From NCBI GenBank assembly GCA_029266935.1, contig JAQSVY010000007.1, positions 1 to 16,358 on the forward strand: DNA of 16,358 nt, in the 5' to 3' direction. The position numbers and the translations under genes were made by a program. Shown here one piece after another: positions 2,591 to 14,230 of this stretch; positions within the stretch are counted from its first letter, which is position 1, and each line of letters opens with the position of its first letter. Source of the DNA: Burkholderiales bacterium. Its GTDB lineage: Bacteria > Pseudomonadota > Gammaproteobacteria > Burkholderiales > SG8-39. The notes beneath the pieces were generated by a model that saw nothing but the letters and a program-made list of their open reading frames with translations, ran no database searches and had not been told where the DNA came from.

Positions 2591-3191
2591 ATGGCCATGC
2601 GCCGCCGCTTCGTCGACGCGCTCAAGCGCAGCCTGCGCGCGCGCGGGCTGACCTACGGCGCGCTGGCGCGCGAGCTGCGACTTTCCGAGGCGAGCGTCAA
2701 GCGCATGTTCTCGCGCGGCACCTTCACGCTCAGCCGTATCGAGCAGATCCTCGCCGTGCTCGATCTGGAGCTCGATGAGTTGGCGCGCATGAGCCGCAGC
2801 GCCGAGGCGCAGGCGCGCGAGCTGAGCCTCGAGCAGGAGAGCGCGCTCGCGAAGGACGAGCGGCTGCTCTCGGTGTTCTGGCTGCTGCAGAACGACTGGC
2901 GCTTCGGGGCCGGTGAAGAAGGTCTACGGGCAACGCGTCATGCAGGAGTTCCTGCAGGGGCGCTTCGACGCGCCCCTCGAGCTGCTGCGCTTCGAGTCCC
3001 GCGTGCTCTCGACCGAATCGGCCATGGTGCTCAAGCGCCGGCTGGAGCGGCTGGCGCGCGACTTCAACGAGTTCGCGGAGGCCGACGCTTCCGCGCCGAG
3101 CGCGCGACGGACGAGCGTCGCGCTGCTCGCGGCCTGCCGCCCCTGGGAGTTTTCCGTGGTGAACGCGCTGAAGCGCCGCAGAAGCGCTTAG
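2591..3191 (+). pseudogene. XRE-family helix-turn-helix regulator, disrupted by internal deletion and frameshift
   Basis: The first part encodes an N-terminal XRE helix-turn-helix: RRRFVDALKRSLRARGLTYG, then ARELRLSEASVKRMFS and FTLSRIEQILAVLDLELDEL, then an acidic linker ending LLSVFWLLQNDWRFG. After about 2905 this frame turns to arginine/alanine-rich sequence of the kind seen in shadow frames. The family-like sequence resumes one frame over as GPVKKVYGQRVMQEFLQGRF and continues through LELLRFESRVLSTES to CRPWEFSVVNALKRR, with stop at 3189-3191. From memory of the family, about 45-50 residues between WxF and GPxxxxF are missing. The break is therefore a deletion that also changes frame. If translated, only the DNA-binding half would be native. 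An assembly error is the alternative. The start is the ATG at 2591, or 2597; no clear ribosome binding site is seen. It overlaps acyP by 4 nt. Confidence 0.75.
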
Positions 3192-3466
3192 GCGGAGGGG
3201 CGAAGCTCGAAGCCGGCGTGCGCGCCTTGCGCGGCGGCCTCGGCTATCTGGACATCCGACACGCGCGCCGCCGGCGGGCCGCGCCGAGCCCAGGCGATCA
3301 ACGCCTCGACCGCGGCGGCCGGGCCGTGCGCGAGGGCCTCGACGCTTCCATCGGCGCGATTGCGCACCCAGCCGGTCACGCCGAGTGCCTGCGCCTGCTC
3401 GCGCATGGTGGCGCGGAAGCCGACGCCCTGGACGATGCCACTGACACGAATTTGCCGGGTCACCAT
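3188..3466 (-). CDS. acyP: Acylphosphatase
   Basis: A 92-residue protein of the usual acylphosphatase length, a small cytoplasmic enzyme that hydrolyses acyl phosphates such as carbamoyl phosphate and 1,3-bisphosphoglycerate. The signature GIVQGVGFRATMREQA carries the phosphate-binding loop with catalytic Arg18. The second signature GWVRNRADGSVEALAHG carries the water-positioning Asn36. The single alpha/beta acylphosphatase fold fills the protein. The start is the ATG at 3466; upstream sequence shows no strong Shine-Dalgarno. Its stop overlaps the end of the convergent XRE gene by 4 nt, and it is divergent to the pilin-like gene across 87 bp. Its neighbours suggest no pathway, which is common for acyP. 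Confidence 0.95.
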   Translation of the reverse strand: MVTRQIRVSGIVQGVGFRATMREQAQALGVTGWVRNRADGSVEALAHGPAAAVEALIAWARRGPPAARVSDVQIAEAAAQGAHAGFELRPSA

Positions 3467-3553
3467 GCCGCGAGAGCGAGGCCCATGTTAAGCTGCCGCG
3501 CGAAAACCGCAGCAGGAAAAAGGCGGGGAAGGGCAGGAAAAAGGGGGAAGAAG

Positions 3554-3946
3554 ATGCGCATCGGCTTGCTCTTATTCGCGGGTCTCGCCTTGATCGGCTT
3601 CCTCGTCGTGGCCGTCGTCCTACCGCAGATGGAGGGCTCCGGCTTGAAGGAGGCCGCCCTGGCGCTGGTGAGCGGCGCCGATCCGGCGAAGCAGCAGGTC
3701 GCCGCCACGGCGGAGAAATCGGGCGGGCTCGCCGGCGCCGGCCGTGGCGTGAAGCTCGCGCCGAGGAATGACGCCAAGCACGGCGAGATGAAATGGATCA
3801 TCGGCGACGACGGCTCGATCCGCGGCTGGAACGAGAAGAACGCGCTCGAAATCGCCCTGCTGCCCACCCTGCAGGCCGGCAGGGTAACCTGGAGCTGCAA
3901 GGGCTACCCGGTCAACGCGATGCCCCAGAGCTGCGCCGGGCGCTAG
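3554..3946 (+). CDS. Single-TM protein with type IV pilin-like C-terminal domain
   Basis: A 130-residue protein that I do not recognise as a named gene. Residues 4-24 (IGLLLFAGLALIGFLVVAVV) form one hydrophobic helix. A helical stretch LKEAALALVSGADPAKQQVA follows, resembling the alpha-1 continuation of type IVa pilins. The C-terminal half has GSIRGWN, ALEIALLPTLQAGRVTWSCK and VNAMPQSCAGR. This matches the pilin pattern of a WxC strand followed by a proline-Ser-Cys disulfide loop. What is missing is the prepilin peptidase site and the GFTLIEL-type N-terminus, so it should not be processed as a normal pilin. The start ATG follows AGGGGGAAG by a few bases, a good ribosome binding site. The 3' end overlaps the convergent small-subunit gene by 35 nt. 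No pilus assembly genes are in the window. Confidence 0.72.
   Translation: MRIGLLLFAGLALIGFLVVAVVLPQMEGSGLKEAALALVSGADPAKQQVAATAEKSGGLAGAGRGVKLAPRNDAKHGEMKWIIGDDGSIRGWNEKNALEIALLPTLQAGRVTWSCKGYPVNAMPQSCAGR
3866..3885. repeat. Perfect 7-bp inverted repeat near the operon end
   Basis: ACCCTGC and GCAGGGT are separated by 6 nt, forming a GC-rich hairpin. It lies inside the end of the pilin-like gene and 26 nt past the stop of the minus-strand complex operon. No T-run follows on either strand, so it is not a classical intrinsic terminator. It could stabilise the 3' end of the operon transcript or be chance in GC-rich coding DNA. Confidence 0.35.
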
Positions 3947-4451
3947 TGCTGCTCACCGCCGTCAGCATGCCCTGAATGATGGCTGCGGGCGCCGGCGGGC
4001 AGCCCGGCACCGCCACGTCGACCGGGATTACGTTCGACACCGCGCCGCGGCTGGCGTAGCTCTCGCCGAAGATGCCGCCGCTGCAGCCGCAATCGCCGAT
4101 CGCCACCACCAGCTTGGGCTCGGGCGTCGCTTCGTAGGTGCGGCGCAGCGCCGTCTCCATGTGGCGCGACACCGGGCCGGTCACGAGCAGCAGGTCGGCA
4201 TGCCGTGGGCTTGCCACGAAGCGGATGCCGAGTCGCTCCAGGTTGTAGTGGGGGCTGTTGCAGGCGTGGATCTCTAGCTCGCAGCCGTTGCACGACCCTG
4301 CATCCACATGGCGCACCGCGAGGGAGCGGCCGAAATGCCCGAGCACCGCGTCCTGTAGGCGCTGCGCGAGGAGGCGCAGCGATTCGTCGGCCTCCGGCGC
4401 CGGCTCGGTGACGATGCCGGTCTTGGCGATCTGCTTCAGGAGCCTGTACAT
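3912..4451 (-). CDS. ehrS: Small (NuoB/HyfI-like) FeS subunit of Ehr-type complex
   Basis: A 179-residue homologue of NuoB and HyfI, the subunit holding the terminal [4Fe-4S] cluster (N2 type) at the junction with the large subunit. Motifs are AGSCNGCELEIHAC (Cys54, Cys57), VAIGDCGCSGGIFGE (Cys121, with Cys123 nearby) and VAVPGCPPAPAAIIQGML (Cys151). The four family cluster ligands are therefore present. RHADLLLVTGPVSRHM is also a strong family block. It is the last gene of the operon and starts 3 nt after the large-subunit stop (TAAGCCATG), which implies translational coupling. The C-terminal tail after GMLTAV is Ser/Arg-rich and is mostly encoded opposite the pilin-like gene, so it is probably an accidental extension. 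Cysteine ligands intact here contrast with their loss in the partner subunit. Confidence 0.93.
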   Translation of the reverse strand: MYRLLKQIAKTGIVTEPAPEADESLRLLAQRLQDAVLGHFGRSLAVRHVDAGSCNGCELEIHACNSPHYNLERLGIRFVASPRHADLLLVTGPVSRHMETALRRTYEATPEPKLVVAIGDCGCSGGIFGESYASRGAVSNVIPVDVAVPGCPPAPAAIIQGMLTAVSSTSARRSSGASR

Positions 4452-4454
4452 GGC

Positions 4455-6008
4455 TTAGAGGTCGTGCCCGCTGTAGGACAGGTTGAACGACTTGTTGATG
4501 AGCGGAAAGTCCGGGACGATGTTGCCGAGCACGGCGCGCTCGAGGAGCGGCCAGTTCTGCCATGATGGGTCGTGCACGTGCACGCGGTGCAAGGCGCCTT
4601 CGGCGCCGGTCTCGAGTGCGATGAAGACCTCGCCGCGCCAGCCTTCCACCCAGCCGCAGCCGCGCCGCGCGGCGCCCGGGCGCTCTAGCGCGAGCCGCAG
4701 CTCGCCGGGCGGCAGCGCATCGGCGAGCGCGCGGATAAGACGAAACGACTCGGCGAGCTCCTCGAAGCGCACCGAGACGCGGGCGGCCACATCGCCGCGG
4801 ATGTGCCCCGAGACGCGCACTTCAAGACCCCGGTAAGGCGCAATGGGGTGCGCCGCGCGCAGGTCGTGCTCCTGCCCGCTCGCCCGGCCGGCCAGACCGG
4901 TGAGGTCGAGCGCGGCGGCGAGCTCGGGCGTCACCTGGCCGGTCATGATGAAGCGGTCCTGCGCGCCGGCGTGCTCGTCGTAGATCGTGCGCAGCTCGCC
5001 GATCTCGCGCTCGATCGCTGCGAGGGCGTCGATTAGGCGAACGCAGGCAGCGGCGCCGGGATCGCCGGCCACGCCGCCTGGAACGACGTAGTCCATCAGG
5101 TAGCGGTGACCGAACAGCTCGCAGTTCAGCCGCAGCAGGTCCTCCTTGAGTCGCCAGAACTGGAAGAAACCGAAGGACAGCCCGACATCGTTGCCCAGGT
5201 AGCCGAGGTCGCCGAGGTGGTTCGCGACGCGCTCGAGTTCTAGCGCGACCCCGCGCAAGGCCGCCGCGCGCGGAGGCACCTCGACGCCGAGCAAGGCCTC
5301 GAGCGCCATGGCATAGGCCCAGGCATACGCGACCGTGGAGTCCCCGCTCACGCGCCCGGCGAGGCGCGCCGCGTCGAGCGCCGTCATGCCCTCGAAGCGC
5401 TTCTCGATGCCCTTGTGCTTGTAGCCGAGCCGCTCCTCGAGCTTGAGGATCTTCTCGCCCACGATCGAGAAGCGGAAGTGCCCGGGCTCGATGGTGCCGG
5501 CGTGCACCGGGCCGACCGGGATTTCGTGCACTCCCTCGCCTTCCACGCGCACAAAGGGATAGCGGTCCTCGCTCGCTTCGAAGCGCGCGCCGGCATCGAA
5601 GTCCTTGCGCAACGGGAACTGGCCGCCGGGCCAGGCGGCATGGCGCAGCCACTTGCGATGGTCCGGGCTATCCTGCGCGTGGACGCCCACCAGGTCGTAG
5701 GCGGCGCGCTGCATGCGCGCGGCAGCCGGGAACAAGTCGGCGATCCCGGGATAGCGCGGATGCTCGCGCTCGAGCGGCACGCCGATCCAGAGCAGCCCTT
5801 CGCGCAGCGCCAGCGCGACGTGCAGCCCGTAGCCGGCGCCGCGCGGCGTCTCGTCGCTCGCCCACAGGGCGACCAGCCGCGCCTGGCGCGCCTTGGCCTT
5901 CTCGGCCAGCGCGCGCAGGGCGCCGGGCGCGACGGGGGCGTGCCACGCTGGCAGCGCGCCCGGCAGACGCTGCGCCTCGATACCCAGCGTGGCGAAGGGG
6001 TGCGTCAT
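4455..6008 (-). CDS. ehrL: Large (NuoC-NuoD fused, HyfG-like) subunit lacking the NiFe ligands
   Basis: A 517-residue protein fusing a NuoC-like N-terminus (block VPLEREHPRYPGIADLFP, about 78-95) to a NuoD/HyfG-like domain. Family blocks include GPVHAGTIEPGHFRF (166-180), GEKILKLEERLGYKHKGIEK (184-203), LELERVANHLGDLGY and GRASGQEHDLRAAHP. In real hydrogenases the motif after this reads RVCGxC; here it is RVSGDS, so both cysteines are serine (221 and 224). The C-terminal DPCxxC motif is replaced by NLSYSG (509-514), with Ser511 and Gly514 at the cysteine positions. No NiFe site can form in the usual way. The protein would sit on the cytoplasmic face with the small subunit. The start ATG at 6008 overlaps the upstream stop as ATGA, which decides the start over a long open extension to 7067. 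Confidence 0.93.
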   Translation of the reverse strand: MTHPFATLGIEAQRLPGALPAWHAPVAPGALRALAEKAKARQARLVALWASDETPRGAGYGLHVALALREGLLWIGVPLEREHPRYPGIADLFPAAARMQRAAYDLVGVHAQDSPDHRKWLRHAAWPGGQFPLRKDFDAGARFEASEDRYPFVRVEGEGVHEIPVGPVHAGTIEPGHFRFSIVGEKILKLEERLGYKHKGIEKRFEGMTALDAARLAGRVSGDSTVAYAWAYAMALEALLGVEVPPRAAALRGVALELERVANHLGDLGYLGNDVGLSFGFFQFWRLKEDLLRLNCELFGHRYLMDYVVPGGVAGDPGAAACVRLIDALAAIEREIGELRTIYDEHAGAQDRFIMTGQVTPELAAALDLTGLAGRASGQEHDLRAAHPIAPYRGLEVRVSGHIRGDVAARVSVRFEELAESFRLIRALADALPPGELRLALERPGAARRGCGWVEGWRGEVFIALETGAEGALHRVHVHDPSWQNWPLLERAVLGNIVPDFPLINKSFNLSYSGHDL

Positions 6009-7453
6009 CCGATGAACGCCGCCGCCTGCCGGTACCAGTCGACCAGGTAGGGCGGGATGTAGAGGCCGAGCAGCAGCACGATCGCGAGGTGCACGAACAC
6101 CGGCACCAGCGCCGGCGGATGGGTCAGGCGTTGCGCGGTGGTTTCGCCGAACACCATGGGCTGCACCTTGCCGAAGATGGCGGCGAAGGCGACGCCGAGC
6201 GCGAGGAGCAGGAACGGCGTGGCCCAGGCGTGCTGCCGCATGGCGGTGGTGAGGATCATGAACTCGCTGGTGAACACGCCGAAGGGCGGCATGCCGAGAA
6301 TGGCGAGGGTGCCCAGCGCGAGGCCCCAGCCGATGGTCGGGCTCTGCTGAATCAGGCCGCGGATCGACGCCATGTCCTGTGTGCCGCTCGCCTGCGTCGC
6401 GTGGCCCACGGTGAAGAAGATCGCCGACTTGGTGAGCGAGTGCACGGTCATGTGCAGCAGGCCGGCGAACGCGGCCACCGGCCCGCCCATGCCGAAGGCG
6501 AAGGTCATGATGCCCATGTGCTCGATCGACGAGTACGCGAACATGCGCTTGATGTCCTTCTGGCGCGAGAGAAAGAACGCGGCCACCACCACCGAGAGCA
6601 GGCCGAAGCCCATCATCAGCCCGCCCGAGAAGTTGCGCTCGAGTGCCCCGTCGACCAGCACCTTGCTGCGCACGACCGCGTAAAGCGCCACGTTTAGCAG
6701 CAATCCCGAAAGCACCGCCGAGATCGGCGTCGGCCCTTCCGCGTGTGCGTCGGGCAGCCAGTTGTGCAGCGGCACCAGCCCGACCTTGGTGCCGTAGCCG
6801 ACCAGCAGGAACACGAAAGCGAGCGAGAGCACCGTCGGCTCGAGCTCGCCGCGCACCTCGTGCAGGTGCGTCCACAGCAGCGCGTTGCCGCCCGGTCCCA
6901 GCACCTTCTCGGCCGCGAAGTACAGCAGGATGGTGCCGAACAGGGCCTGCGCGATGCCCACCGAGCACAGGATGAAGTATTTCCACGCCGCTTCCAGGCT
7001 CGCCGGCGTGCGGTACAGCGACACCAGCAGCACCGTCGACAGCGTCGCGCCCTCCATGGCGACCCACAGCATGCCGACGTTGTTCGACAGCAGCGTGAGC
7101 AGCATGGTGAAGCTGAAGAGCTGGTACATGCTGTGGTAGAGCCGCAGCCGGGCGCTGTTGACCCGCTTGTGGTGCTCCTCGGTTCGCATGTAGGGCCGCG
7201 AGAAGAGCGCGGTGGTGAAAGCCACGAACGCGGTGAGGGCGACGAGGAACACGTTGAACGGGTCGACAAACACCTGCTCGTTTAGCGCCGTCATCGGACC
7301 GTCGGCGATGACGCGGCCGGTGAGCAGGGCCGCGGCGATCAGCGTGCCGAGACTGGCGAGCGCGTTCACCTCGGGCGCCCAGGACCGCTGGCCGAAGGCC
7401 GCGAGCACCATTGCGCCGGCGAGGGGCACGCCAAGGACGAGGGCGATCTCCAT
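6005..7453 (-). CDS. hyfF: HyfF-like (NuoN/NuoM-type antiporter-like) membrane subunit
   Basis: A 482-residue polytopic membrane protein of the Mrp/NuoLMN antiporter-like family, closest in pattern to HyfF. Residues used for ion transfer in this family are visible. Glu134 lies in MLWVAMEGATLSTV, Lys223 in GYGTKVGLVPLHNWLPDAHA (His230 also there), Lys264 in VVRSKV, and Glu397 in FTSEFM. KDIKRMFAYSSIEHMGIM and HSLTKSAIFFTVGH are further family blocks. It should form one of the two proton- or cation-translocating modules of the complex in the cytoplasmic membrane. The start overlaps the preceding gene as TGATG, and its own stop overlaps the next start as ATGA, so it sits in the middle of a coupled operon. 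Length and residues show no sign of decay. Confidence 0.95.
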   Translation of the reverse strand: MEIALVLGVPLAGAMVLAAFGQRSWAPEVNALASLGTLIAAALLTGRVIADGPMTALNEQVFVDPFNVFLVALTAFVAFTTALFSRPYMRTEEHHKRVNSARLRLYHSMYQLFSFTMLLTLLSNNVGMLWVAMEGATLSTVLLVSLYRTPASLEAAWKYFILCSVGIAQALFGTILLYFAAEKVLGPGGNALLWTHLHEVRGELEPTVLSLAFVFLLVGYGTKVGLVPLHNWLPDAHAEGPTPISAVLSGLLLNVALYAVVRSKVLVDGALERNFSGGLMMGFGLLSVVVAAFFLSRQKDIKRMFAYSSIEHMGIMTFAFGMGGPVAAFAGLLHMTVHSLTKSAIFFTVGHATQASGTQDMASIRGLIQQSPTIGWGLALGTLAILGMPPFGVFTSEFMILTTAMRQHAWATPFLLLALGVAFAAIFGKVQPMVFGETTAQRLTHPPALVPVFVHLAIVLLLGLYIPPYLVDWYRQAAAFIG

Positions 7454-8115
7454 CAGTCCTCTTTCAGCTTCTCCATGTGGCGGATGTCGAGGCTGTCGAA
7501 CTGCTCGCGGATGTGGAAGAAGAAGATGCCAAAGATGAAGGTGCCGACCAGCACGTCGAGCGCGACGCCCAGCTCGACCACCAGCGGCATGCCGTAGGTG
7601 GCGCTGGTGGCGGCGAAAAACAGGCCGTTCTCCATCGACAGGAAGCCGATCACCTGTGGCACCGCCTTGCGGCGCACGATCATCATCAGGAAGGACAGCA
7701 GCACGCTGGCGAGGGCGATGCCGAGCGTGGAACGGGTGACGGTGCTCGCCATCTGCGAGATGGGCGCGGCGAGCGAGAAGGCAAAGATCGCCACGCCGAT
7801 GCCGGTGAGCATGGTGGTGGGGATGTTGATCAGCATCTCGATGTCCCAGCGCACGTTCAGCTGGTCTATTAGCCGGTGCAGCAGCCAGGGGATCAGGATC
7901 ACCTTCAGGGCGAGCGTCAGGCCTGCCGAAAAGTACAGGTGCGTCTGGCCGGTGGCGTGGGCGACGATGGCGGTGGAAAGCGCGAGCGCCGCGCCCTGCC
8001 AGGCGAACAGCTTGATCAGCGTCAGCACGCGGCGCTGCGCAAGCATCGCGAACGCGAGCAGCAGCAGCAGCGCGGCGAGCAGGTTGACGATCTGGCTGCT
8101 CAGCGAAAGCGCCAT
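7453..8115 (-). CDS. hyfE: HyfE-like (NuoK-related) membrane subunit
   Basis: A 220-residue membrane protein with several hydrophobic helices, matching HyfE, the subunit whose C-terminal half resembles NuoK. The block VPQVIGFLSMENGLFFAATS carries Glu162, and MPLVVELGVALDVLVGTFIF carries Glu181; two buried glutamates in adjacent helices are the NuoK hallmark for ion transfer. The C-terminus is charged (DIRHMEKLKED). The start is placed at the ATG at 8115, one base after the stop of the preceding gene (TGACATG). A GTG at 8124 is an in-frame alternative that would add three residues. The stop forms TGATG with the next start. The subunit would link the antiporter-like modules to the HyfC-like subunit. 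Confidence 0.92.
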   Translation of the reverse strand: MALSLSSQIVNLLAALLLLLAFAMLAQRRVLTLIKLFAWQGAALALSTAIVAHATGQTHLYFSAGLTLALKVILIPWLLHRLIDQLNVRWDIEMLINIPTTMLTGIGVAIFAFSLAAPISQMASTVTRSTLGIALASVLLSFLMMIVRRKAVPQVIGFLSMENGLFFAATSATYGMPLVVELGVALDVLVGTFIFGIFFFHIREQFDSLDIRHMEKLKED

Positions 8116-8116
8116 G

Positions 8117-9073
8117 TCACCCACGCACCAGGAAGTGGATCAGCATGCCCAGCACGCCGAGCAGGAAGGCGGTGGACAGGAACTCGGTAACCAGGAAGAT
8201 GCGCATCTTGGCGAGCAGGGTCTCCAGGAACGCGAGGCCGGCGCCGGCGAGCGCGAGCTTCGCACCCAGCGCCGCGAACGCCATGGGCAGTGCCGCCCAG
8301 TCTCCGGCTGGCGCGATGCCCCAGGGCAGGAACAGCGCGAAGCCGATCGCCATGTACGCGACCAGCTTGATCGCGACCGCCCACTCGATGAGCGCGAGGT
8401 GGCGCGCCGAGTACTCGAGGATCATCGCTTCGTGGATCATGGTCAGCTCGAGGTGCGTGGTCGGGTTGTCGACCGGGATGCGTGCGTTCTCGGCGAGCAG
8501 CACCATCAGGAACGCGACCGCGGCGAACGCGAGGCTGGGATAGATGGCGAATTCGCGGTGCGCGAGCGTCTCGACGATGGTCTGCAGCTGCGTCGAGTCT
8601 GAGATGAACGCGGCGGTGAACAGCGTCATCAGCATGGCGGGCTCGGCGAGGAAGCCGATCATCATCTCGCGGCGCGCGCCCAGGCCGCCGAAGGAGGTGC
8701 CCGTGTCCATGGCCGCCAGCGCGCCGAACACCCGCGCCACCGCGAACACGCCCACCAGCGCGATGATGTCCGCGGCGGGCGCGAACGGCAGGTCGGTGAC
8801 AAGCACCGGGACGATGCCGGCGGCGAGCCACATGCAGCCGAACAGCACGTAGGGCGTGATGCGGAACAGCGGCGAAGCGGTATTGGCGATCACCGCATCC
8901 TTGTGGAAGAGCTTTGCCAGCGTGTAGTACGGCAGCCAGATGCTGGGCGCGGAGCGGTTCTGCAGCCAGGCGCGGCAGATGTTCACCCAGCCCGTCACCA
9001 GCGGCGCGACGAGCACCACCAGCAGCGATTGCAGCACCTGCAAGGCGACTCCAGAGGCCATGGCCGGGGTCAT
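8117..9073 (-). CDS. hyfC: HyfC-like (NuoH-related) membrane anchor subunit
   Basis: A 318-residue membrane protein of the NuoH/HyfC family, the subunit that connects the soluble small/large pair to the membrane ion pumps. Family blocks are SIWLPYYTLAKLFHKD (44-59), GTSFGGLGARREMMIGFLAE (125-144), and the signature LLAENARIPVDNPTTHLELT (192-211) followed by MIHEAMILEYS. Acidic residues such as Glu195, Glu209 and Glu215 lie on the loop that faces the quinone-like cavity in complex I. Whether a quinone binds here cannot be told. The start ATG at 9073 overlaps the preceding stop as ATGA and decides the start over a long artefactual N-terminal extension. The stop is followed after one base by the next ATG. 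Confidence 0.95.
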   Translation of the reverse strand: MTPAMASGVALQVLQSLLVVLVAPLVTGWVNICRAWLQNRSAPSIWLPYYTLAKLFHKDAVIANTASPLFRITPYVLFGCMWLAAGIVPVLVTDLPFAPAADIIALVGVFAVARVFGALAAMDTGTSFGGLGARREMMIGFLAEPAMLMTLFTAAFISDSTQLQTIVETLAHREFAIYPSLAFAAVAFLMVLLAENARIPVDNPTTHLELTMIHEAMILEYSARHLALIEWAVAIKLVAYMAIGFALFLPWGIAPAGDWAALPMAFAALGAKLALAGAGLAFLETLLAKMRIFLVTEFLSTAFLLGVLGMLIHFLVRG

Positions 9074-11076
9074 CGGACGAACACCAGCAGCCCGATCAGG
9101 GTGAGGAAGCTGTAGAGCAGGTAGACGCTGATGCGCCCGCGTTGCAGCAGGCCGATCTTGGAGGAGGTGTACTCCACGAGCCGCGCCAGCGGCAGGTAGA
9201 GCCAGTACCAGTGGCGGTCCTCGATCTTGATCGAGTACCTGGGGTTCGCGTCCTCCGGCCCGGGCAGGTGGCGCTTCATCAGGTACAGCGGGCCGAACAC
9301 GTGGCGGATGGGCTGGCCAAAGGCGTCGGCGGTGTCCTGCATCCGCGTGGTCTGCTCGGGATAGCCGCAGTCCCACGGATCGGCTACGCGAATGCGCCCG
9401 TGGTAGAAGACGCGCACCAGCCGCACGGTGATGAGGACCACCGCGAGCACCACCAGCAGAAAGATGATCGCGCTGTAGCTCGCCTGCATTGGCTGCGTCG
9501 GCACTACCCACAGCCAGTTCGACTCCAGGGCCTGGGCGCTGAGGCTGCTGCCGGTGAGCGAGGCGGCGACCCGGTTGAGCATGAGCAGCATCGCGGCAGG
9601 GAAAAGGCCGAGGAAGAAGCAGCCCGCGGTAAGCCACGCCAGCCCCAGGCGCTCGCTCAAGCGGGCGTCGCCGTGGGCTTTCTCGGCGGAATGGCGCGCG
9701 CGGCCAAGGAACGCCACGCCGAACACCTTGACGAAGCACATCGCGGTGAGCGCGCCAGCGAGCGCGAGCACGGCGGCGAACAGCGGCAGCAGGCTGCGCA
9801 CCACGCCGTGCTCGATCAGCGAGGCCTGCAGCGCGGTCTGGAAGGTGAGCCACTCCGAGACGAAGCCGTTGAGCGGCGGCAGCGCGGAGATCGCCAGCGC
9901 ACCCACGAGGAAGTAGAACGCGGTGGCGGGCATGGTGCGTATCAGTCCGCCCATCGCGTTCAGGTCGCGCAGGCCCGTCGCATGCAGGATCGAGCCCGCG
10001 CCCAGAAACAGCAGGCCCTTGAACACCGCGTGGTTGAGCGTGTGGTAGAGCGCCGCGATCAGGCCGAGCACGCCGGCCTCGCGGTGTCCGAAGCCGAAGA
10101 ACACCATCGACATGCCCAGGCCGAGCAGGATGATGCCGATGTTCTCGACCGAGTGGTAGGCGAGCAACCGCTTAAGGTCGTGCTGCATCAGCGCGAACAG
10201 CACGCCGAACAGCGTCGTACCGGCGCCCACCACCAGCACCAGGATCCCCCAGTCCCATCGCACCGCGCCGATCAGGTCGTAGCTGATGCGCACCATGCCG
10301 TAGATGGCGGTCTTGATCATCACGCCGCTCATCAGCGCCGACACCGGGGAGGGAGCGGCCGGGTGCGCCTCGGGCAGCCAGGCGTGCAGCGGGATCAGGC
10401 CGGCCTTGGCGCCGAAGCCGAAGAAGGCGAGCAGGAAGGCGACGCTGGCCCAGAACGGGCTCAGCTCGGCCGCGCGCAGCGCGTCGAAGGTGTAATCGCC
10501 GCCGCCGCCGTGCATCACACCGAAGCACAGCAATACCGCGATGGCGCCGATGTGCGCCACCAAAAGGTACAGGAAGCCCGCGCTGCGGATCGCCGGGCGC
10601 TGGTGGTCCGTGGTGACGAGGAAGTACGAGGCTAGCGCCATCGTCTCCCAGGCCACCATGAAGAGGTAGGCGTCGTCGGCCAGTAGGACGAACGCCATGC
10701 TGGCGAGGAAGAAGTGGTACTGCAGGCAGATGAGCCGCAGGCGCGCGCCGGCCTCGTCGCGGAAATAGCCGATGGAATAGACCGAGACGCCCGCCGCCAC
10801 CGCGCCCAGCAGCAGCAGGAAGAAGCCGGCGAGGGGATCGAGCCGGAGATGGAACGGCAGGTCCGGCAGCCCCAGGGGCAGCACCAGGCTCGAGGCGGGG
10901 TACCAGACGCCCTGCGCGCCCAGCGCCGCGAGCGCCAGGCTGGCGGCGGCGCCGGCGGGGAACAACGCGCGCCGCACGAAGGCCGCGCCGGCGGGGAGCA
11001 GGCCGAGCAGGCCGATCGCCAGCCAGGCGGTGGCCGCGAGCAGGGCAGCGGCGAGCAGGCTGGGGGGGCTGTCCAT
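9070..11076 (-). CDS. hyfB: HyfB-like (NuoL/NuoM-type antiporter-like) membrane subunit, first gene of operon
   Basis: A 668-residue polytopic membrane protein, near the length I recall for HyfB, of the NuoLMN antiporter-like family. Key residues are Glu144 in FMVAWETMALASYFLVTTDH, Lys224 in FGFGAKAGLIPLHAWLPEAH, His231, Lys255 in MIKTAIYGMVR, and the later block NHAVFKGLLFLGAGSILHAT. The C-terminal extension contains VADPWDCGYPEQTTRMQDTA and AFGQPIRHVFGPLY, typical of HyfB-type proteins and not of NuoL. The start is the ATG at 11076. An upstream extension to 11133 would run through the promoter region and through the opposite gene, so it is rejected. No Shine-Dalgarno is seen, and a TATAAT lies only 10 nt before the ATG, so the transcript may be nearly leaderless. 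It opens the six-gene operon. Confidence 0.95.
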   Translation of the reverse strand: MDSPPSLLAAALLAATAWLAIGLLGLLPAGAAFVRRALFPAGAAASLALAALGAQGVWYPASSLVLPLGLPDLPFHLRLDPLAGFFLLLLGAVAAGVSVYSIGYFRDEAGARLRLICLQYHFFLASMAFVLLADDAYLFMVAWETMALASYFLVTTDHQRPAIRSAGFLYLLVAHIGAIAVLLCFGVMHGGGGDYTFDALRAAELSPFWASVAFLLAFFGFGAKAGLIPLHAWLPEAHPAAPSPVSALMSGVMIKTAIYGMVRISYDLIGAVRWDWGILVLVVGAGTTLFGVLFALMQHDLKRLLAYHSVENIGIILLGLGMSMVFFGFGHREAGVLGLIAALYHTLNHAVFKGLLFLGAGSILHATGLRDLNAMGGLIRTMPATAFYFLVGALAISALPPLNGFVSEWLTFQTALQASLIEHGVVRSLLPLFAAVLALAGALTAMCFVKVFGVAFLGRARHSAEKAHGDARLSERLGLAWLTAGCFFLGLFPAAMLLMLNRVAASLTGSSLSAQALESNWLWVVPTQPMQASYSAIIFLLVVLAVVLITVRLVRVFYHGRIRVADPWDCGYPEQTTRMQDTADAFGQPIRHVFGPLYLMKRHLPGPEDANPRYSIKIEDRHWYWLYLPLARLVEYTSSKIGLLQRGRISVYLLYSFLTLIGLLVFVR

Positions 11077-11079
11077 CGC

Positions 11080-11100
11080 GATGTGAATTATATTATCATC
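11080..11100. promoter_or_regulatory. Divergent promoter with imperfect palindrome (candidate RHH operator)
   Basis: The 32 bp between the divergent hyfB-like and RHH genes are strikingly A/T-rich against a GC-rich background. Positions 11080-11100 form an imperfect palindrome GATG-N2-AAT-N3-ATT-N2-CATC with 14 of 20 arm positions symmetric. It covers a TATAAT on the minus strand (11092-11087) and a TATTAT on the plus strand (11091-11096). A protein bound here would block both directions. No good -35 box was found for either promoter. The likely regulator is the adjacent ribbon-helix-helix protein; this is inference. Confidence 0.55.
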
Positions 11101-11108
11101 CAGCGCAC

Positions 11109-11282
11109 ATGGCGAAAGAGCAACGCACCGCACGCCTCACGATCCTGGTCGACCCGCGCAAGAAAGCGGTGTTCGAGCGGCTGTGCGCGGAGGAGGATCA
11201 GACGCCCTCGCAGGTGGTGCGCCGGCTTATGCGCGAGTACATCGAGAAGCGCCTGGGCCGCCCCTGGGCGGCGAAAGGCTAG
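11109..11282 (+). CDS. Small ribbon-helix-helix (CopG-like) DNA-binding protein
   Basis: A 57-residue protein fitting one ribbon-helix-helix domain. RTARLTILVDPRKKAVFERL supplies the beta strand that inserts in the major groove and helix 1; TPSQVVRRLMREYIEKRLG supplies the turn and helix 2. Such proteins act as dimers on short palindromes, often as autorepressors. The start is the ATG at 11109, with no visible Shine-Dalgarno and a very short space to the TATTAT box, so a leaderless message is possible. It is divergent to the complex operon across 32 bp that contain a palindrome. Its 3' end overlaps the convergent kinase gene by 4 nt. No toxin partner follows on the same strand, so an antitoxin role is unsupported. 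Confidence 0.85.
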   Translation: MAKEQRTARLTILVDPRKKAVFERLCAEEDQTPSQVVRRLMREYIEKRLGRPWAAKG

Positions 11283-12523
11283 CGCTTCTGCGGGTTGTCG
11301 CGCTTGACGATCGCGCGCGCAACCGCCAGGCCGAACAGCGTCGCCGCGCCGACCAGCAGCCAGTCGCGCCGCCGCCATCTGGCCGGGGGCGCGCGCGGCA
11401 GGGAGCGGATCGCCTGCGTCGCCGTCTCGCGCGAGTTGCGCGTGGTGAGGGGGGCGCCCGGCGCGGTGGCGGCGCCGGTCAGCACGGCAAGGCGCTGCGT
11501 CGCCTCGTTTGAGTCGAACGACGGCGCCACGCCGCGCGCCGGGGCGCTTGCCACGTCCTGCGGCGTCTTGTCCGCTTCGCGCGTGCGGTTCACGGTCTGC
11601 GCCAGCGCCACGGTCCTCGAGCGCGTGTCGACCAGCTGGGGTTGCGCGCCGCTCGCGAGGGCGACCGGCGGGCGCGCTACGCTGACCGCGGGCGGCGCGG
11701 CGAGCTGGCGCTCGCACTCGCGCAGGTCGCGCGCCAGCTCGCGCGCGTCCTGGTAGCGCTCCTCGAGCGGCTTGGCGAGCATCTTGGCGATGATGTAGTC
11801 GAGCATTTCCGGCAGGGCGGCGTTGATGGCGCTCGGCGCGGGAGGCGCGAAGTTGACGATCTGGTACATGAGCGCGGTGACGTTCTCGCCGTTGAAGGGC
11901 GCCGCGCCGCACAGCATCTCGTAGAGGATCACGCCCAGCGAAAAGAGGTCCGAGCGGTGGTCGGCGCGCTTGCCGATGACCTGCTCCGGCGACATGTATT
12001 TCGGCGAGCCGAGCATCAGCCCCGTCTGCGTCAGGTCGGCGGAGGCGCGCATGCGGGCGATGCCGAAGTCGGTGATCTTCACCGGACCGTTGGCGACTAC
12101 CATGATGTTGGCCGGCTTGATGTCGCGGTGCACGACGCCACGCTCGTGCGCGTAGGCGAGGCCTTCGGCGACCTGCGCGGCGATCGACAGTGCCTGCGCC
12201 ATGGCGAGCTGGCGCCCTTCGCCGATGAGCGCGCGCAACTCTACGCCCTCGATGTATTCCATCGCCATGTACACCACGTCACCCGCCTTGCCGGCGTCGT
12301 AGACGGTGACGATATTGGGATGGTTCAGCCCACCGGCGGCGCGCGCCTCCTGGTAGAAGCGCGCCTCGTACTTGTCGGCGTGGTCTCGCTCGAGCGCCAT
12401 GTTGACCGTCTTGACGGCGACGACGCGCTCGAGCACGGTGTCCATGGCCTTGTAGACGACACCCATCGCGCCGCGGCCGATCTCGGACTGGATGACGTAT
12501 CGGCCGAGCTGTGGTTGCTCCAT
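11279..12523 (-). CDS. Membrane-anchored Hanks-type serine/threonine protein kinase
   Basis: A 414-residue protein with a complete eukaryotic-like kinase domain at about 8-270. All catalytic elements are present: glycine loop IGRGAMGVVY (15-24), Lys38 in VAVKTV, Glu59, HRDIKPAN (132-139, catalytic Asp134), DFG (152-154), activation segment GSPKYMSPEQ and Asp192 in HRSDLFSLGVILYEML. It should be active and bind ATP-Mg. A Ser/Thr/Ala/Pro-rich linker of about 100 residues follows, then a C-terminal hydrophobic helix at about 388-406 flanked by RWRRR and KRDNPQKR. This gives a cytoplasmic kinase tethered to the inner membrane, without a PASTA or other sensor domain. It starts 8 nt after the lipoprotein gene, so they are probably co-transcribed. 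The phosphorylated target is unknown. Confidence 0.95.
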   Translation of the reverse strand: MEQPQLGRYVIQSEIGRGAMGVVYKAMDTVLERVVAVKTVNMALERDHADKYEARFYQEARAAGGLNHPNIVTVYDAGKAGDVVYMAMEYIEGVELRALIGEGRQLAMAQALSIAAQVAEGLAYAHERGVVHRDIKPANIMVVANGPVKITDFGIARMRASADLTQTGLMLGSPKYMSPEQVIGKRADHRSDLFSLGVILYEMLCGAAPFNGENVTALMYQIVNFAPPAPSAINAALPEMLDYIIAKMLAKPLEERYQDARELARDLRECERQLAAPPAVSVARPPVALASGAQPQLVDTRSRTVALAQTVNRTREADKTPQDVASAPARGVAPSFDSNEATQRLAVLTGAATAPGAPLTTRNSRETATQAIRSLPRAPPARWRRRDWLLVGAATLFGLAVARAIVKRDNPQKR

Positions 12524-12531
12524 TGCGGCGC

Positions 12532-13191
12532 CTAGCGACCCGCCTTCACCGCGCGGAACACCGGCCCCCAGGCCGGATGCCCGGCCTCGGCGGGCGCAAG
12601 CTCAAGGGCGGGGTAGATGGCGAGCGCCTTGCGGAACTCCTCCCTGCATGGCTGCTGGCGGTCGGCAGCGCAATGGATGAAGGCGAGGTGCTTGTGCGCC
12701 CTGGCGCGGTCCTTGTCGGGCAAGCCGCGCTCGATCGCACCCTGCAGGGTCTTCGCGGACTCCTCGTATTTGCCTTCCTCGTAGAGGCGCAGCCCGGCGC
12801 TGAGCGGCGGCTCGCCGCTCTTCATCGAGCGGAAGATCGGCCCCCACACCGGGTGTCCTGCCTCCGCGGTAGTAAGGTCCATGTTCGGCTCGACGGCGAG
12901 CGCCTTGCGGAAATCCTCGCGGCACAGGCGCTCGCGGCCTGAGGCGCAATGGATGAAGGCAAGGTGCTTGTGTGCGCGCGCACGCTGCGCGTCAGCCAGT
13001 CCCAGATTCACCGCGGCCTGCAGATTGCGCGCCGACTCGACGTACTGGGCGTTCTCGTACTCTCGCATCCCCGTGGCGAAGGCGACGTCACCCTTGCTCG
13101 TCCAGAGAAGCTGCTGCAGGTCGCGCATGGGCGCGCTGGAGCACGCCGAGAGGACGAGCAGCATGCCGGCTGCGATGGCGGCGCGAATCAT
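12532..13191 (-). CDS. TssQ-like lipoprotein with two 92-residue repeats
   Basis: A 219-residue predicted lipoprotein. The signal peptide ends in lipobox LSAC with Cys17. The mature part consists of two copies of a 92-residue TPR-like unit (about 36-125 and 128-217). Both contain RARAHKHLAFIHCA, a C-R-E/D-x-FRKALA helix and AEAGHPxWGPxFR. This pattern resembles the TssQ family of type VI secretion-associated lipoproteins as I remember it; the match is from memory and should be tested. The start overlaps the cyclase stop as TGATG, and the kinase starts 8 nt downstream. It is the likely envelope partner of the two membrane-anchored signalling enzymes. No type VI secretion genes are in the window. 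Confidence 0.8.
   Translation of the reverse strand: MIRAAIAAGMLLVLSACSSAPMRDLQQLLWTSKGDVAFATGMREYENAQYVESARNLQAAVNLGLADAQRARAHKHLAFIHCASGRERLCREDFRKALAVEPNMDLTTAEAGHPVWGPIFRSMKSGEPPLSAGLRLYEEGKYEESAKTLQGAIERGLPDKDRARAHKHLAFIHCAADRQQPCREEFRKALAIYPALELAPAEAGHPAWGPVFRAVKAGR
12541..12810 (-). repeat. Internal repeat copy 2 of the lipoprotein gene
   Basis: This encodes residues 128-217 of the lipoprotein and is related to copy 1 with a 276-nt (92-codon) offset. The DNA remains recognisably similar, for example around 12671-12697 against 12947-12973, where CAATGGATGAAGGC is shared exactly. Confidence 0.8.
12817..13086 (-). repeat. Internal repeat copy 1 of the lipoprotein gene
   Basis: This encodes residues 36-125. 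It is collinear with copy 2 without gaps over most of its length (HKHLAFIHC at 74 and at 166; GHPxWGP at 112 and 204), which indicates duplication of one ancestral unit. Confidence 0.8.
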
Positions 13192-14186
13192 CAGCGGAAC
13201 CTGTGCCGTATTTGGATGGCTTCCCCTGCCTTCACTTCGACCTTTGCGACATGCGCCGGAAACGTCGAGTTTCGGATTTCTATCCGATGCGGGCCGGCGG
13301 GGATTTCAACCGTGCGCAGGGGCGGGCTGACGCCGCGGCTCTTGCCGTCGATCAGAACCTCGCCCCAGGGTGCGACCGCGAAGACGATGGTACCGACGCC
13401 GGCTGACGTGGGCGCCTGTGCGTGGCGCTCGGGCTTCGGGGTAGCCGGTGCGGCAGCGACCGGCCTGGACGCCGGCGGCGTAGGCGGAACATCGCGGTCC
13501 ATCACTGCGCGCGCCACGACACCGCCTGCGACCATGAGCAGGAACACAAGGGGGGCTGCAAGCAGCGCGGAGCGTCGCAGACCGAGCGGCCCGGTGCCGC
13601 GCAGCCACCCCGTCGGCCCCTGCGCGCCGACCTCGATCGTGAGCGTGTCGGACAGGCGCCGCCCGGCCGGTGCGCCGCCGACGACAGAATAGACGTCGTG
13701 CTCGCGCACATGCTTGTCTGTGCGAGCGCCCTCGTGCTGGAAGAGGCCCACATAGTCGCGCGACAGGCAGGAGACGACCTCGTAGAAGGAGCGTGAGACG
13801 AGCAGCTGTCCGGGGCCGGCGAAGCTCATGACGCGCTGTGCCACGTTGATGCCGTCGCCGATGATGTTCGTCTGGTCGTTCAGGTCCTTGACCAGGCGCA
13901 CCGGGCCGAGGTTGACGCCCATGCGCACGCCGACCGAGGTGGCCATGTCGCGCATCGCAATCGAGGCGAACAGGGCGTCCTCGGGATCGCCCATGAAGGT
14001 GACTGCCGCGCCATCGCCGGTATCGAGGATGATGCGATCGCGCGAGGCCACCTGCTCGAGCGCCTGGGAGAGCGCCTGGTTGAAGGCCTGCTTGAGCTGT
14101 AGCTGCTCCGCGACCGGCTTCTTGGAGTACTCCGCGATGTCGAGAAACAGCACGCTGCAGACCAACGTGCGGCCCGCGCCCTCCAT
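13191..14186 (-). CDS. Class III adenylate/guanylate cyclase with C-terminal PEGA domain
   Basis: A 331-residue protein with a cyclase catalytic domain at about 8-170. Metal ligands are visible: Asp16 in VLFLDIAEYSK and Asp58 in ILDTGDGAAVTFMG. Transition-state residues Asn114 and Arg118 lie in IGDGINVAQRVM. The usual RMGVNLGPV block precedes them. A hydrophobic helix at about 206-228 (SALLAAPLVFLLMVAGGVVA) is followed by a Pro/Ala-rich linker and a PEGA-type domain at about 264-331 (GEVLIDGKSRGVSPPL, IPAGPHRIEIRN). The cyclase would be cytoplasmic and the PEGA domain periplasmic. The nucleotide made (cAMP or cGMP) cannot be decided. The start is the ATG at 14186, preceded by GAGGA at 6 nt; a TTG at 14210 is less likely. 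The stop overlaps the lipoprotein start. Confidence 0.92.
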   Translation of the reverse strand: MEGAGRTLVCSVLFLDIAEYSKKPVAEQLQLKQAFNQALSQALEQVASRDRIILDTGDGAAVTFMGDPEDALFASIAMRDMATSVGVRMGVNLGPVRLVKDLNDQTNIIGDGINVAQRVMSFAGPGQLLVSRSFYEVVSCLSRDYVGLFQHEGARTDKHVREHDVYSVVGGAPAGRRLSDTLTIEVGAQGPTGWLRGTGPLGLRRSALLAAPLVFLLMVAGGVVARAVMDRDVPPTPPASRPVAAAPATPKPERHAQAPTSAGVGTIVFAVAPWGEVLIDGKSRGVSPPLRTVEIPAGPHRIEIRNSTFPAHVAKVEVKAGEAIQIRHRFR

Positions 14187-14230
14187 CAGGTGTCCTCGCC
14201 CTTGCGGCAAAACCCGCGCCGCGACGCGAG

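Follow-up and report, generated by a model that had tools for sequence, protein, structure and literature searches.

A type-1 Ehr complex in a Burkholderiales contig and its possible connection with inorganic-carbon supply

Energy-converting hydrogenase-related (Ehr) complexes, or hyfBCEFGI gene sets without NiFe motifs, are described in excerpts from PMC6349859, PMC10284858, PMC7735108, PMC10432482, PMC7304191, PMC4378227, and PMC5596200. In these excerpts they occur in several iron-, sulfur-, and ammonia-oxidizing autotrophs, and their function is either called unknown or suggested to involve formate. The large subunit encoded by the Acidithiobacillus ferrooxidans hyfBCEFGI set has no CxxC motifs and is stated not to be a hydrogenase (PMC7735108, excerpt); the sets of comammox Nitrospira (PMC10284858, excerpt) and Sulfobacillus (PMC4378227, excerpt) also lack these motifs and are called Ehr of unknown function, and a comammox Nitrospira hyfBCEFGI set has been named a putative group 4 hydrogenase (PMC5596200, excerpt). 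Here we analyze an operon of this kind, ehrB-C-E-F-G-I, in the Burkholderiales bacterium contig JAQSVY010000007.1 (G000:C185 in our numbering, in which G denotes genomes and L loci). The window comprises the complete contig of 16,358 bases, and its source genome is 56.5% complete.

The operon shows no difference in kind from published Ehr, with which it was compared by description and not by sequence, and it is one more member of an already described kind and not a new one. Beyond the published accounts, a type-1 clade is resolved here from types 2, 2b, 3, 4, and 5. Also new are a divergent ribbon-helix-helix (RHH) regulator with a predicted operator, linkage in some loci to genes for SulP transporters, gamma-carbonic anhydrase, DASS-like transporters, and RuBisCO, co-occurrence with RuBisCO across genomes, and an adjoining, H-containing sister set whose large subunit retains four cysteines (the four-Cys set). 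No link between Ehr- or Hyf-like sets and inorganic-carbon uptake was recognized in the open-licence literature, among the matches listed, and one may be in print elsewhere; neither hyf nor hydrogenase is mentioned in the excerpt of PMC6458275.

Three well-known systems are among the closest comparisons. Escherichia coli Hyf and Hyc have homologous B, C, E, F, G, and I subunits, but Ehr differs from them in having neither the NiFe cysteines nor a C-terminal processing extension, and its operon contains no A, D, or H subunit and no formate dehydrogenase. The DAB (DabA-DabB) vectorial carbonic anhydrase resembles Ehr in its NuoL-like proton subunit and in a gene linkage to RuBisCO that Ehr shows in some loci; unlike DAB, Ehr has no DabA in its operon, has six subunits with a [4Fe-4S] site, and is not clearly tied to DabA in its distribution. 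The cyanobacterial CO2-hydrating complex I, NDH-1MS, shares with Ehr a complex I-type membrane arm, a link to CO2 being hypothesized for Ehr, but no CupA/B and no ferredoxin-input subunit were seen in the ehr operon (compared with an excerpt of PMC13144422 and with general knowledge).

Subunits and former active site

The identification of the six genes as a type-1 Ehr complex, and not a hydrogenase, is secure on the sequence comparisons that follow. Six intact open frames occupy positions 3912 to 11076 on the minus strand, and their junctions are ATGA (B/C), TGACATG (C/E), TGATG (E/F), ATGA (F/G), and TAAGCCATG (G/I). The original prediction of HyfB-, HyfC-, HyfE-, HyfF-, HyfG-, and HyfI-like subunits with these junctions is borne out by the frames, their order, and the Pfam, NCBIfam, PDB, and BLASTP matches (Table 1); EhrE gave no match in the Pfam and NCBIfam scan. 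Among solved structures, EhrG and EhrC come closest to subunits of E. coli formate hydrogenlyase, and EhrI to MbhJ. EhrB and EhrF pass the NCBIfam cut-offs for "hydrogenase 4 subunit B" and "hydrogenase 4 subunit F", and the early warning that such automatic labels mislead was justified.

The locus was compared with 20 relatives and with 80 contig loci, the best 80 of at least 572 by similarity, giving 101 loci with the window counted. The main large subunit is type 1 in 96 of these and type 2 or 2b in four (L050 to L053), and in L125 the large-subunit frame ends out of frame. The full run B-C-E-F-G-I is present in 86 of the 101 loci, so this gene order is more than chance; 13 of the remaining 15 loci reach a contig end, and in L095 and L130 E is absent from the gene calls within the run.

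The former NiFe site was mapped by aligning EhrG with HycE, HyfG, and NuoCD, and it was surveyed in 102 aligned type-1 large subunits. (EhrG residues are numbered as in our alignment A1, in which residue 1 is His3 of the protein, so that 2 must be added for protein numbering.) In place of the four NiFe cysteines of HycE, EhrG has Ser219, Ser222, Ser509, and Gly512: the L1 motif RVCGIC has become RVSGDS, and the L2 motif DPCYSC has become NLSYSG. An alternative placement of L2 at DPSWQNW was rejected, since the alignment sets it at NLSYSG. The same alignment reveals no cleavable C-terminal processing extension. Among the 102 sequences, the former ligand positions vary (219: 85 Ser, 9 Ala, 8 Cys; 222: 93 Ser, 8 Thr, 1 Ala; 509: 87 Ser, 7 Ala, 7 Asn, 1 Cys; 512: 101 Gly, 1 Ala), and the four cysteines never occur together.

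While the former ligands vary, D221, D478, N503, K504, and H167 are invariant in all 102 sequences, suggesting that the site is under selection but not as a four-Cys metal site, and decay of the pocket was rejected on this ground. D221, a gained residue, lies between former ligands 219 and 222; the aspartate recurs in all 13 Ehr2, Ehr2b, and Ehr3 rows, and the position is Ile or Val in 4/4 hydrogenase and four-Cys rows. Where Thermus thermophilus Nqo4 has H38 and Y87, which we take to be the quinone ligands of complex I, EhrG has I171 (102/102) and G220 (101/102). Ehr thus differs from complex I in the replacement of the quinone His and Tyr, and an NADH or ferredoxin input module was not detected. 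Judged from these alignments, the pocket would support neither NiFe nor quinone chemistry and gives the impression of having been rebuilt, not of having decayed.

The proton-path residues of the membrane arm are largely retained. In homologues of more than 52% identity, and in the numbering of the window's proteins, EhrB has E144, K224, and E408 in 71/71 and K255 in 66/71, and EhrF has E134, K223, and E397 in 94/94. Which residues of antiporter subunits carry protons is well established, and the original observation that they are present in the antiporter-like subunits holds except at one position: the lysine of transmembrane helix 8 is Asn in all 94 EhrF homologues, as it is in E. coli HyfF. 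The ligand pattern of the proximal [4Fe-4S] cluster, CxxC[ED]..GxC..GCPP, is intact in 102 of 104 small subunits from the 101 loci, some of which belong to adjoining paralogous sets; of the other two, the L106 protein is truncated and that of L113 ends in GCPV.

A tblastn search of the 101 loci (86 with the full run) with E. coli HyfH, HycF, and NuoI detected no ferredoxin-like H subunit in any Ehr1, Ehr2, or Ehr2b operon, and no NuoEFG- or NuoI/HyfH-like gene was detected in an Ehr operon of these loci. The HyfH-like genes at four loci (L036, L065, L100, and L113) each lie in a second, paralogous cluster. Including further loci, H accompanies Ehr3, Ehr4, the four-Cys sister, and a HycE-like set, and it was not detected with Ehr5. 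Three loci have redox genes outside the Ehr operon: L051 and L064, with a HycB-like gene near a molybdopterin oxidoreductase or NrfD gene, and L086, with NuoF/G-like genes about 4 kb past ehrI. By these comparisons, Ehr appears to have kept the proton machinery, with subunits B, C, E, and F, together with the large and small subunits and one [4Fe-4S] site. It appears to have lost both sets of ligands, those for NiFe and the quinone-binding ones of NuoD, as well as H, the ferredoxin-like subunit for electron input.

In a maximum likelihood tree of 50 large subunits, built without Ech, MBH, MBX, or the Ehr sequences named in papers, type-1 Ehr forms a single clade (support 100/98). It belongs to a wider clade (100/100) that contains Ehr1, Ehr2, 2b, 3, 4, 5, and the four-Cys group and that stands apart from HycE and HyfG; the tree program flags long branches for NuoCD, for L139, and where Ehr4 meets Ehr5. 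The large subunit therefore does not group inside the functional NiFe hydrogenases HycE and HyfG, the placement that would have spoken against the original prediction, but it has a close sister that retains the cysteines. The four-Cys large subunits share with Ehr the C-terminal signature VPDFPLVNKSF and differ from it in having intact RICGVC and CYSC motifs (RICGVC ... CYSCTDR, ending at that Arg) and an H subunit in the set. Because this tree does not settle how the four-Cys, Ehr4/5, and Ehr1-3 groups branched, the NiFe site may have been lost once or twice.

In two genomes, G002 (of the window's genus) and G067, the four-Cys set lies directly upstream of Ehr. The two four-Cys large subunits are 92% identical over the 322 residues present in G002, but the Ehr large subunits of these genomes are less alike (79% and 60% identical to that of the window), which suggests recent transfer. 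In G067 its order is B-C-E-F-G-H-I, preceded by genes for a histidine kinase and a response regulator.

Three further Cys-less large-subunit families carry C-terminal signatures of their own: NKSFDLSYCGNDL in Ehr3 (L100, L113, L140, and L141), INEASFGL in Ehr4 (L142 to L144), and ILSTFDLS in Ehr5 (L136 to L138). Type 1 and type 2 sets occur in tandem in L091, L145, and L147 and are probably head-to-head in L068.

Inorganic-carbon genes near Ehr operons and in Ehr genomes

The survey of gene neighborhoods for conserved partners, proposed with the original prediction, yielded inorganic-carbon genes as its lead. In 9 of the 101 loci (L041, L048, L062, L070, L072, L081, L117, L121, and L130), the window not among them, a SulP, gamma-carbonic anhydrase, or CitMHS/DASS-like gene on the same strand either overlaps ehrB or ends no more than 120 bp from it. 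RuBisCO was found in seven of these nine genomes, in that of L130 as fragments, by a search that excluded L070 and L121. Two loci fetched for their nearby RuBisCO and lying outside the 101, L152 and L153, also have such an abutting gene. In L081 a SulP gene is followed by one for gamma-carbonic anhydrase, which overlaps ehrB by 11 bp or, should a later ATG be the start, is separated from it by 4 bp. In L048 ehrB is preceded by genes for a CitMHS-type transporter and gamma-carbonic anhydrase, the gaps being 37 and 10 bp. The top PDB matches of the gamma-carbonic anhydrase are carbonic anhydrases and CcmM; against the NCBIfam equivalog models it scores below the cut-offs. The match to the DASS model is likewise below its cut-off, and the SulP models used here do not separate sulfate from bicarbonate transporters, the BicA equivalog falling below cut-off.

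SulP genes occur upstream of ehrB in 12 loci, all on the same strand, and downstream in 1, against an expected upstream share of 34.5% (P = 2.5e-5, with loci taken as independent). SulP is also the commonest Pfam family (10 proteins) among 103 adjacent proteins, which were hand-picked, not blind, from 224 candidates; metG, dnaE, acylphosphatase, GlcE, kinase, TPR, and cyclase genes were left out in the picking. Neither the neighbor clusters nor the 25 neighbor families shown include a widely shared redox partner. Three of the 101 loci (L041, L061, and L062) include a RuBisCO large subunit gene within their stretch, and L126 has a 32% match. L151, chosen because of its nearby RuBisCO, has CbbQ, the RuBisCO small and large subunits, a LysR regulator, a DabB-like protein, and DabA encoded within 15 kb past ehrI. 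DabA was detected by tblastn in 1 of the 101 locus stretches (L080) and in no operon.

A 353-amino-acid protein encoded near ehrI matches part of the CsoSCA catalytic domain in L041 (11310-12371) and L072 (12334-13392). Two other neighbors of ehrI suspected of being carbonic anhydrase-like, in L042 and L048, were identified instead as a member of the enolase superfamily and an Fe-ADH.

Co-occurrence was tested across 398 genomes of the order, RuBisCO large subunits being called at E <= 1e-100 with PF00016 and Ehr at E < 1e-100 with EhrG; this stricter count leaves out three EhrG matches of lower significance (1e-63 to 1e-75), two of them Ehr3 and one Ehr4, and the window's genome was excluded from every 2x2 table. 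RuBisCO is present in 72 of 97 Ehr genomes and in 77 of the 301 others (odds ratio [OR] 8.4, phylogeny being ignored). In a logistic model with hypD and DabA, the ORs are 6.3 for RuBisCO (3.6-11.2), 3.2 for hypD (1.8-5.6), and 0.54 for DabA (0.29-1.02). Within the window's family, all 65 other genomes of which were listed, RuBisCO occurs in 24/40 genomes with Ehr and 3/25 without (P = 2e-4), in 22/35 versus 5/30 when type 1 alone is considered (P = 3e-4), and in 12/18 versus 0/6 with one row per genus (P = 0.014). A PF00016 match was found in 42 of the 50 genomes behind 50 of the 80 contig loci, some of these being fragments or weaker RuBisCO-like matches. Ehr and RuBisCO lie within 30 kb on one contig, identified by eye, in at least eight genomes (G049, G118, G224, G307, G312, G350, G395, and G460).

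Maturation genes were sought through hypD only. It is missing from 36 of the 97 Ehr-positive genomes of the order (>=90% complete), and it was not found in any of ten other genomes of the window's genus, drafts that are 60 to 97% complete. The sole match to the NiFeSe_Hases Pfam model in the window's 56.5%-complete genome is below cut-off (18.9 of 25.8 bits). The claim that this is Ehr and not a hydrogenase is therefore sustained by the absent NiFe ligands, the separate clade, and the many Ehr genomes without hypD, and the hydrogenase maturation genes that would have contradicted it were probed by this one gene. The further parts of the original proposal, that the complex is assembled and would couple an event to ion transport, are inferred.

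Possible functions of type-1 Ehr

Two findings, the SulP and gamma-carbonic anhydrase genes linked to Ehr at some loci and the co-occurrence of Ehr with RuBisCO within one family, yield a concrete hypothesis for the function of Ehr. Our best lead, held tentatively, is that type-1 Ehr is a proton-coupled machine that serves inorganic-carbon supply. Proton movement through EhrB, EhrF, EhrC, and EhrE would be coupled to a change, conformational or chemical, in the pocket that once held NiFe and that may have been rebuilt around the invariant D221. Beside SulP transporters and gamma-carbonic anhydrase, the machine would serve net CO2 hydration or bicarbonate accumulation, in the manner of NDH-1MS and DAB. 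Heterotrophs, of which the window's genus may be one, could use the bicarbonate for ordinary carboxylations.

Several observations weigh against inorganic-carbon supply. Some concern the mechanism: it leaves the role of the retained [4Fe-4S] cluster unexplained, and the conservation of the cluster ligands in essentially all EhrI proteins speaks for a redox step. Scanned against Pfam, EhrG showed no carbonic anhydrase domain, a metal site not having been otherwise searched for, and SulP proteins also carry sulfate, some of the linked genomes bearing names such as Thiobacillus. Others concern distribution. The order-wide tests do not correct for phylogeny, 25 of the 97 Ehr genomes have no RuBisCO, and among the matches listed, Ehr and RuBisCO are apart in the majority of the 72 genomes that have the two. 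Because Ehr is also associated with hypD, a general link to lithotrophy is possible. In the window's genus, 4 of 5 genomes that are at least 85% complete have Ehr (two of them type 2b) and 0 of 5 have RuBisCO; the window's own genome, 56% complete, yielded neither RuBisCO nor DabA, and the genes that neighbor its operon (kinase, acylphosphatase, dnaE, and metG) are unrelated to carbon uptake. Finally, the relation between Ehr and DabA is not clear (OR 1.3, P = 0.40), and the idea that Ehr replaces DAB, the two being mutually exclusive, is unsupported by this value and by that within RuBisCO-positive genomes (OR 0.58, P = 0.13).

The explanation that comes next, close behind inorganic-carbon supply and also quite possible, is a redox-driven ion pump, in which a soluble or membrane carrier docks directly on EhrI and sends electrons by way of its one [4Fe-4S] cluster to an acceptor within the rebuilt pocket. 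This electron flow would drive proton pumping, or the machine would run backward at the expense of the proton-motive force. The near-universal cluster pattern and the conserved proton-path residues favor such a pump, as does the fact that the nearest homologues are redox machines. A link to formate dehydrogenase has been proposed in other lineages (PMC6349859, excerpt), and a formate role is considered possible in A. ferrooxidans (PMC7735108, excerpt). However, no H or ferredoxin subunit was detected in the operon, the NiFe and quinone ligands are both absent, and nearby redox genes are confined to single loci (L051, L064, and L086) rather than forming a shared partner.

A more specific form of the inorganic-carbon hypothesis seems to us doubtful. 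It holds that Ehr would be a third inorganic-carbon pump of the complex I family besides NDH-1MS and DAB, in which the Asp221 pocket handles CO2 or bicarbonate, proton flow through EhrB and EhrF makes the reaction vectorial, the small RHH repressor runs the operon, and H was lost as the hydrogenase turned into a pump. Ranking below it, and unlikely, is the proposal that the role of Ehr is not carbon supply as such but the energizing or balancing of anion or pH homeostasis in general, as when sulfate or bicarbonate is exchanged with the help of SulP and DASS-like transporters. This would accommodate the SulP and CitMHS/DASS-like neighbors (the DASS assignment being below cut-off), the Thiobacillus and Gallionella relatives, and the inability of the SulP models to tell sulfate from bicarbonate, but gamma-carbonic anhydrase, the RuBisCO large and small subunits, CbbQ, DabA, and the CsoSCA-like protein in some loci point to carbon, and the association with RuBisCO holds within one family. 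The automatic labels, backed by NCBIfam equivalog matches for B and F, would make the complex a working group 4 NiFe hydrogenase (hydrogenase 4 or formate hydrogenlyase), which we reject as very improbable given that all four cysteines are replaced, that processing extension and detectable H subunit are both lacking, that the NiFeSe_Hases score is below cut-off, and that many Ehr genomes have no hypD.

Regulator, operon surroundings, and minor features

The 57-amino-acid RHH protein encoded divergently from ehrB (Table 1) is the probable regulator of the operon, to judge by gene position and a candidate operator. Its gene was detected by tblastn in 29 of the 101 loci, the window counted; among the other 28, it is divergent and less than 400 bp upstream of ehrB in 16, upstream on the same strand within less than 300 bp in 5, and farther away in 7. 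The predicted operator in the window, ATGATAAT-N3-ATTATCAT, overlaps a TATAAT element resembling a -10 box, as judged by eye. With up to 4/16 mismatches allowed, this palindrome was found upstream of ehrB in 14 of the 22 loci that have an RHH gene close by and in 7 of the 64 that do not, counts that are partly circular in that the pattern was derived from the loci being scored; in five of the latter seven an RHH gene lies at a greater distance.

Table 1. Coordinates of the Ehr operon, its probable regulator, and the four-Cys sets
Feature	Position	Strand	Evidence or remarks
ehrB, HyfB/NuoL-M-like antiporter subunit, 668 aa	9070..11076	-	Pfam Proton_antipo_M 6e-56; NCBIfam hydrogenase 4 subunit B above cut-off; E144, K224, K255, E408
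ehrC, HyfC/NuoH-like membrane subunit	8117..9073	-	Pfam NADHdh 3e-30; best PDB 7z0s_D (formate hydrogenlyase [FHL] subunit 4) 1.6e-38; ATGA junction with ehrB
ehrE, HyfE-like membrane subunit	7453..8115	-	BLASTP to E. coli HyfE, 23% over 223 columns, 5e-11; TGACATG and TGATG junctions; same place in 86/101 loci
ehrF, HyfF-like antiporter subunit, 482 aa	6005..7453	-	Pfam Proton_antipo_M 8e-53; NCBIfam hydrogenase 4 subunit F above cut-off; E134, K223, E397 kept
ehrG, large subunit, NuoC-like and NuoD/HycE-like	4455..6008	-	Pfam Complex1_30kDa and 49kDa; best PDB HycE (7z0s_E) 5.5e-58
ehrI, small subunit, proximal [4Fe-4S] ligand pattern	3912..4451	-	Pfam Oxidored_q6 3e-33; best PDB 6cfw_J MbhJ 1e-41
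Divergent RHH protein, 57 aa, probable operon regulator	11109..11282	+	Pfam RHH_9 1e-21
Predicted operator, between RHH gene and ehrB	11081..11099	-	2/16 mismatches
Four-Cys hydrogenase-like set, L036	2-1820
Four-Cys hydrogenase-like set, L065	2-4407
Four-Cys hydrogenase-like set, L156	11389-18999

The ehr operon often sits between dnaE and metG in the window's family. In the window, the block between ehr and metG (11279-14210) encodes a Ser/Thr kinase, a TssQ-family TPR lipoprotein, and a weakly adenylate cyclase-like protein; L040 has a similar block, and so does L047 except that the TPR gene is missing. On the other side of the operon, the C-terminal part (about 3560-3946) of a plus-strand frame at 2591-3946 resembles a separate small membrane-anchored protein, the 3' end of which overlaps that of ehrI by about 35 bp. 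A helix-turn-helix gene at 2591-3191 (Pfam HTH_26, slightly below cut-off) seems to shift frame near position 2900, its N-terminal part being in one frame and the part from 2913 in another, through either a frameshift or an assembly error.

Two further genes recur near Ehr in other genomes. A spermidine synthase-like gene is found in 17 of the 101 loci (e.g., L079, 3928-4686; L094, 3946-4773; and L091, 3893-4648), adjoining ehrB or ehrI in some. Mainly in Paraburkholderia and its relatives, Ehr is accompanied by a membrane protein that we take to be DUF1275-like (L082, L094, L098, L099, L107, L109, L110, and L118).

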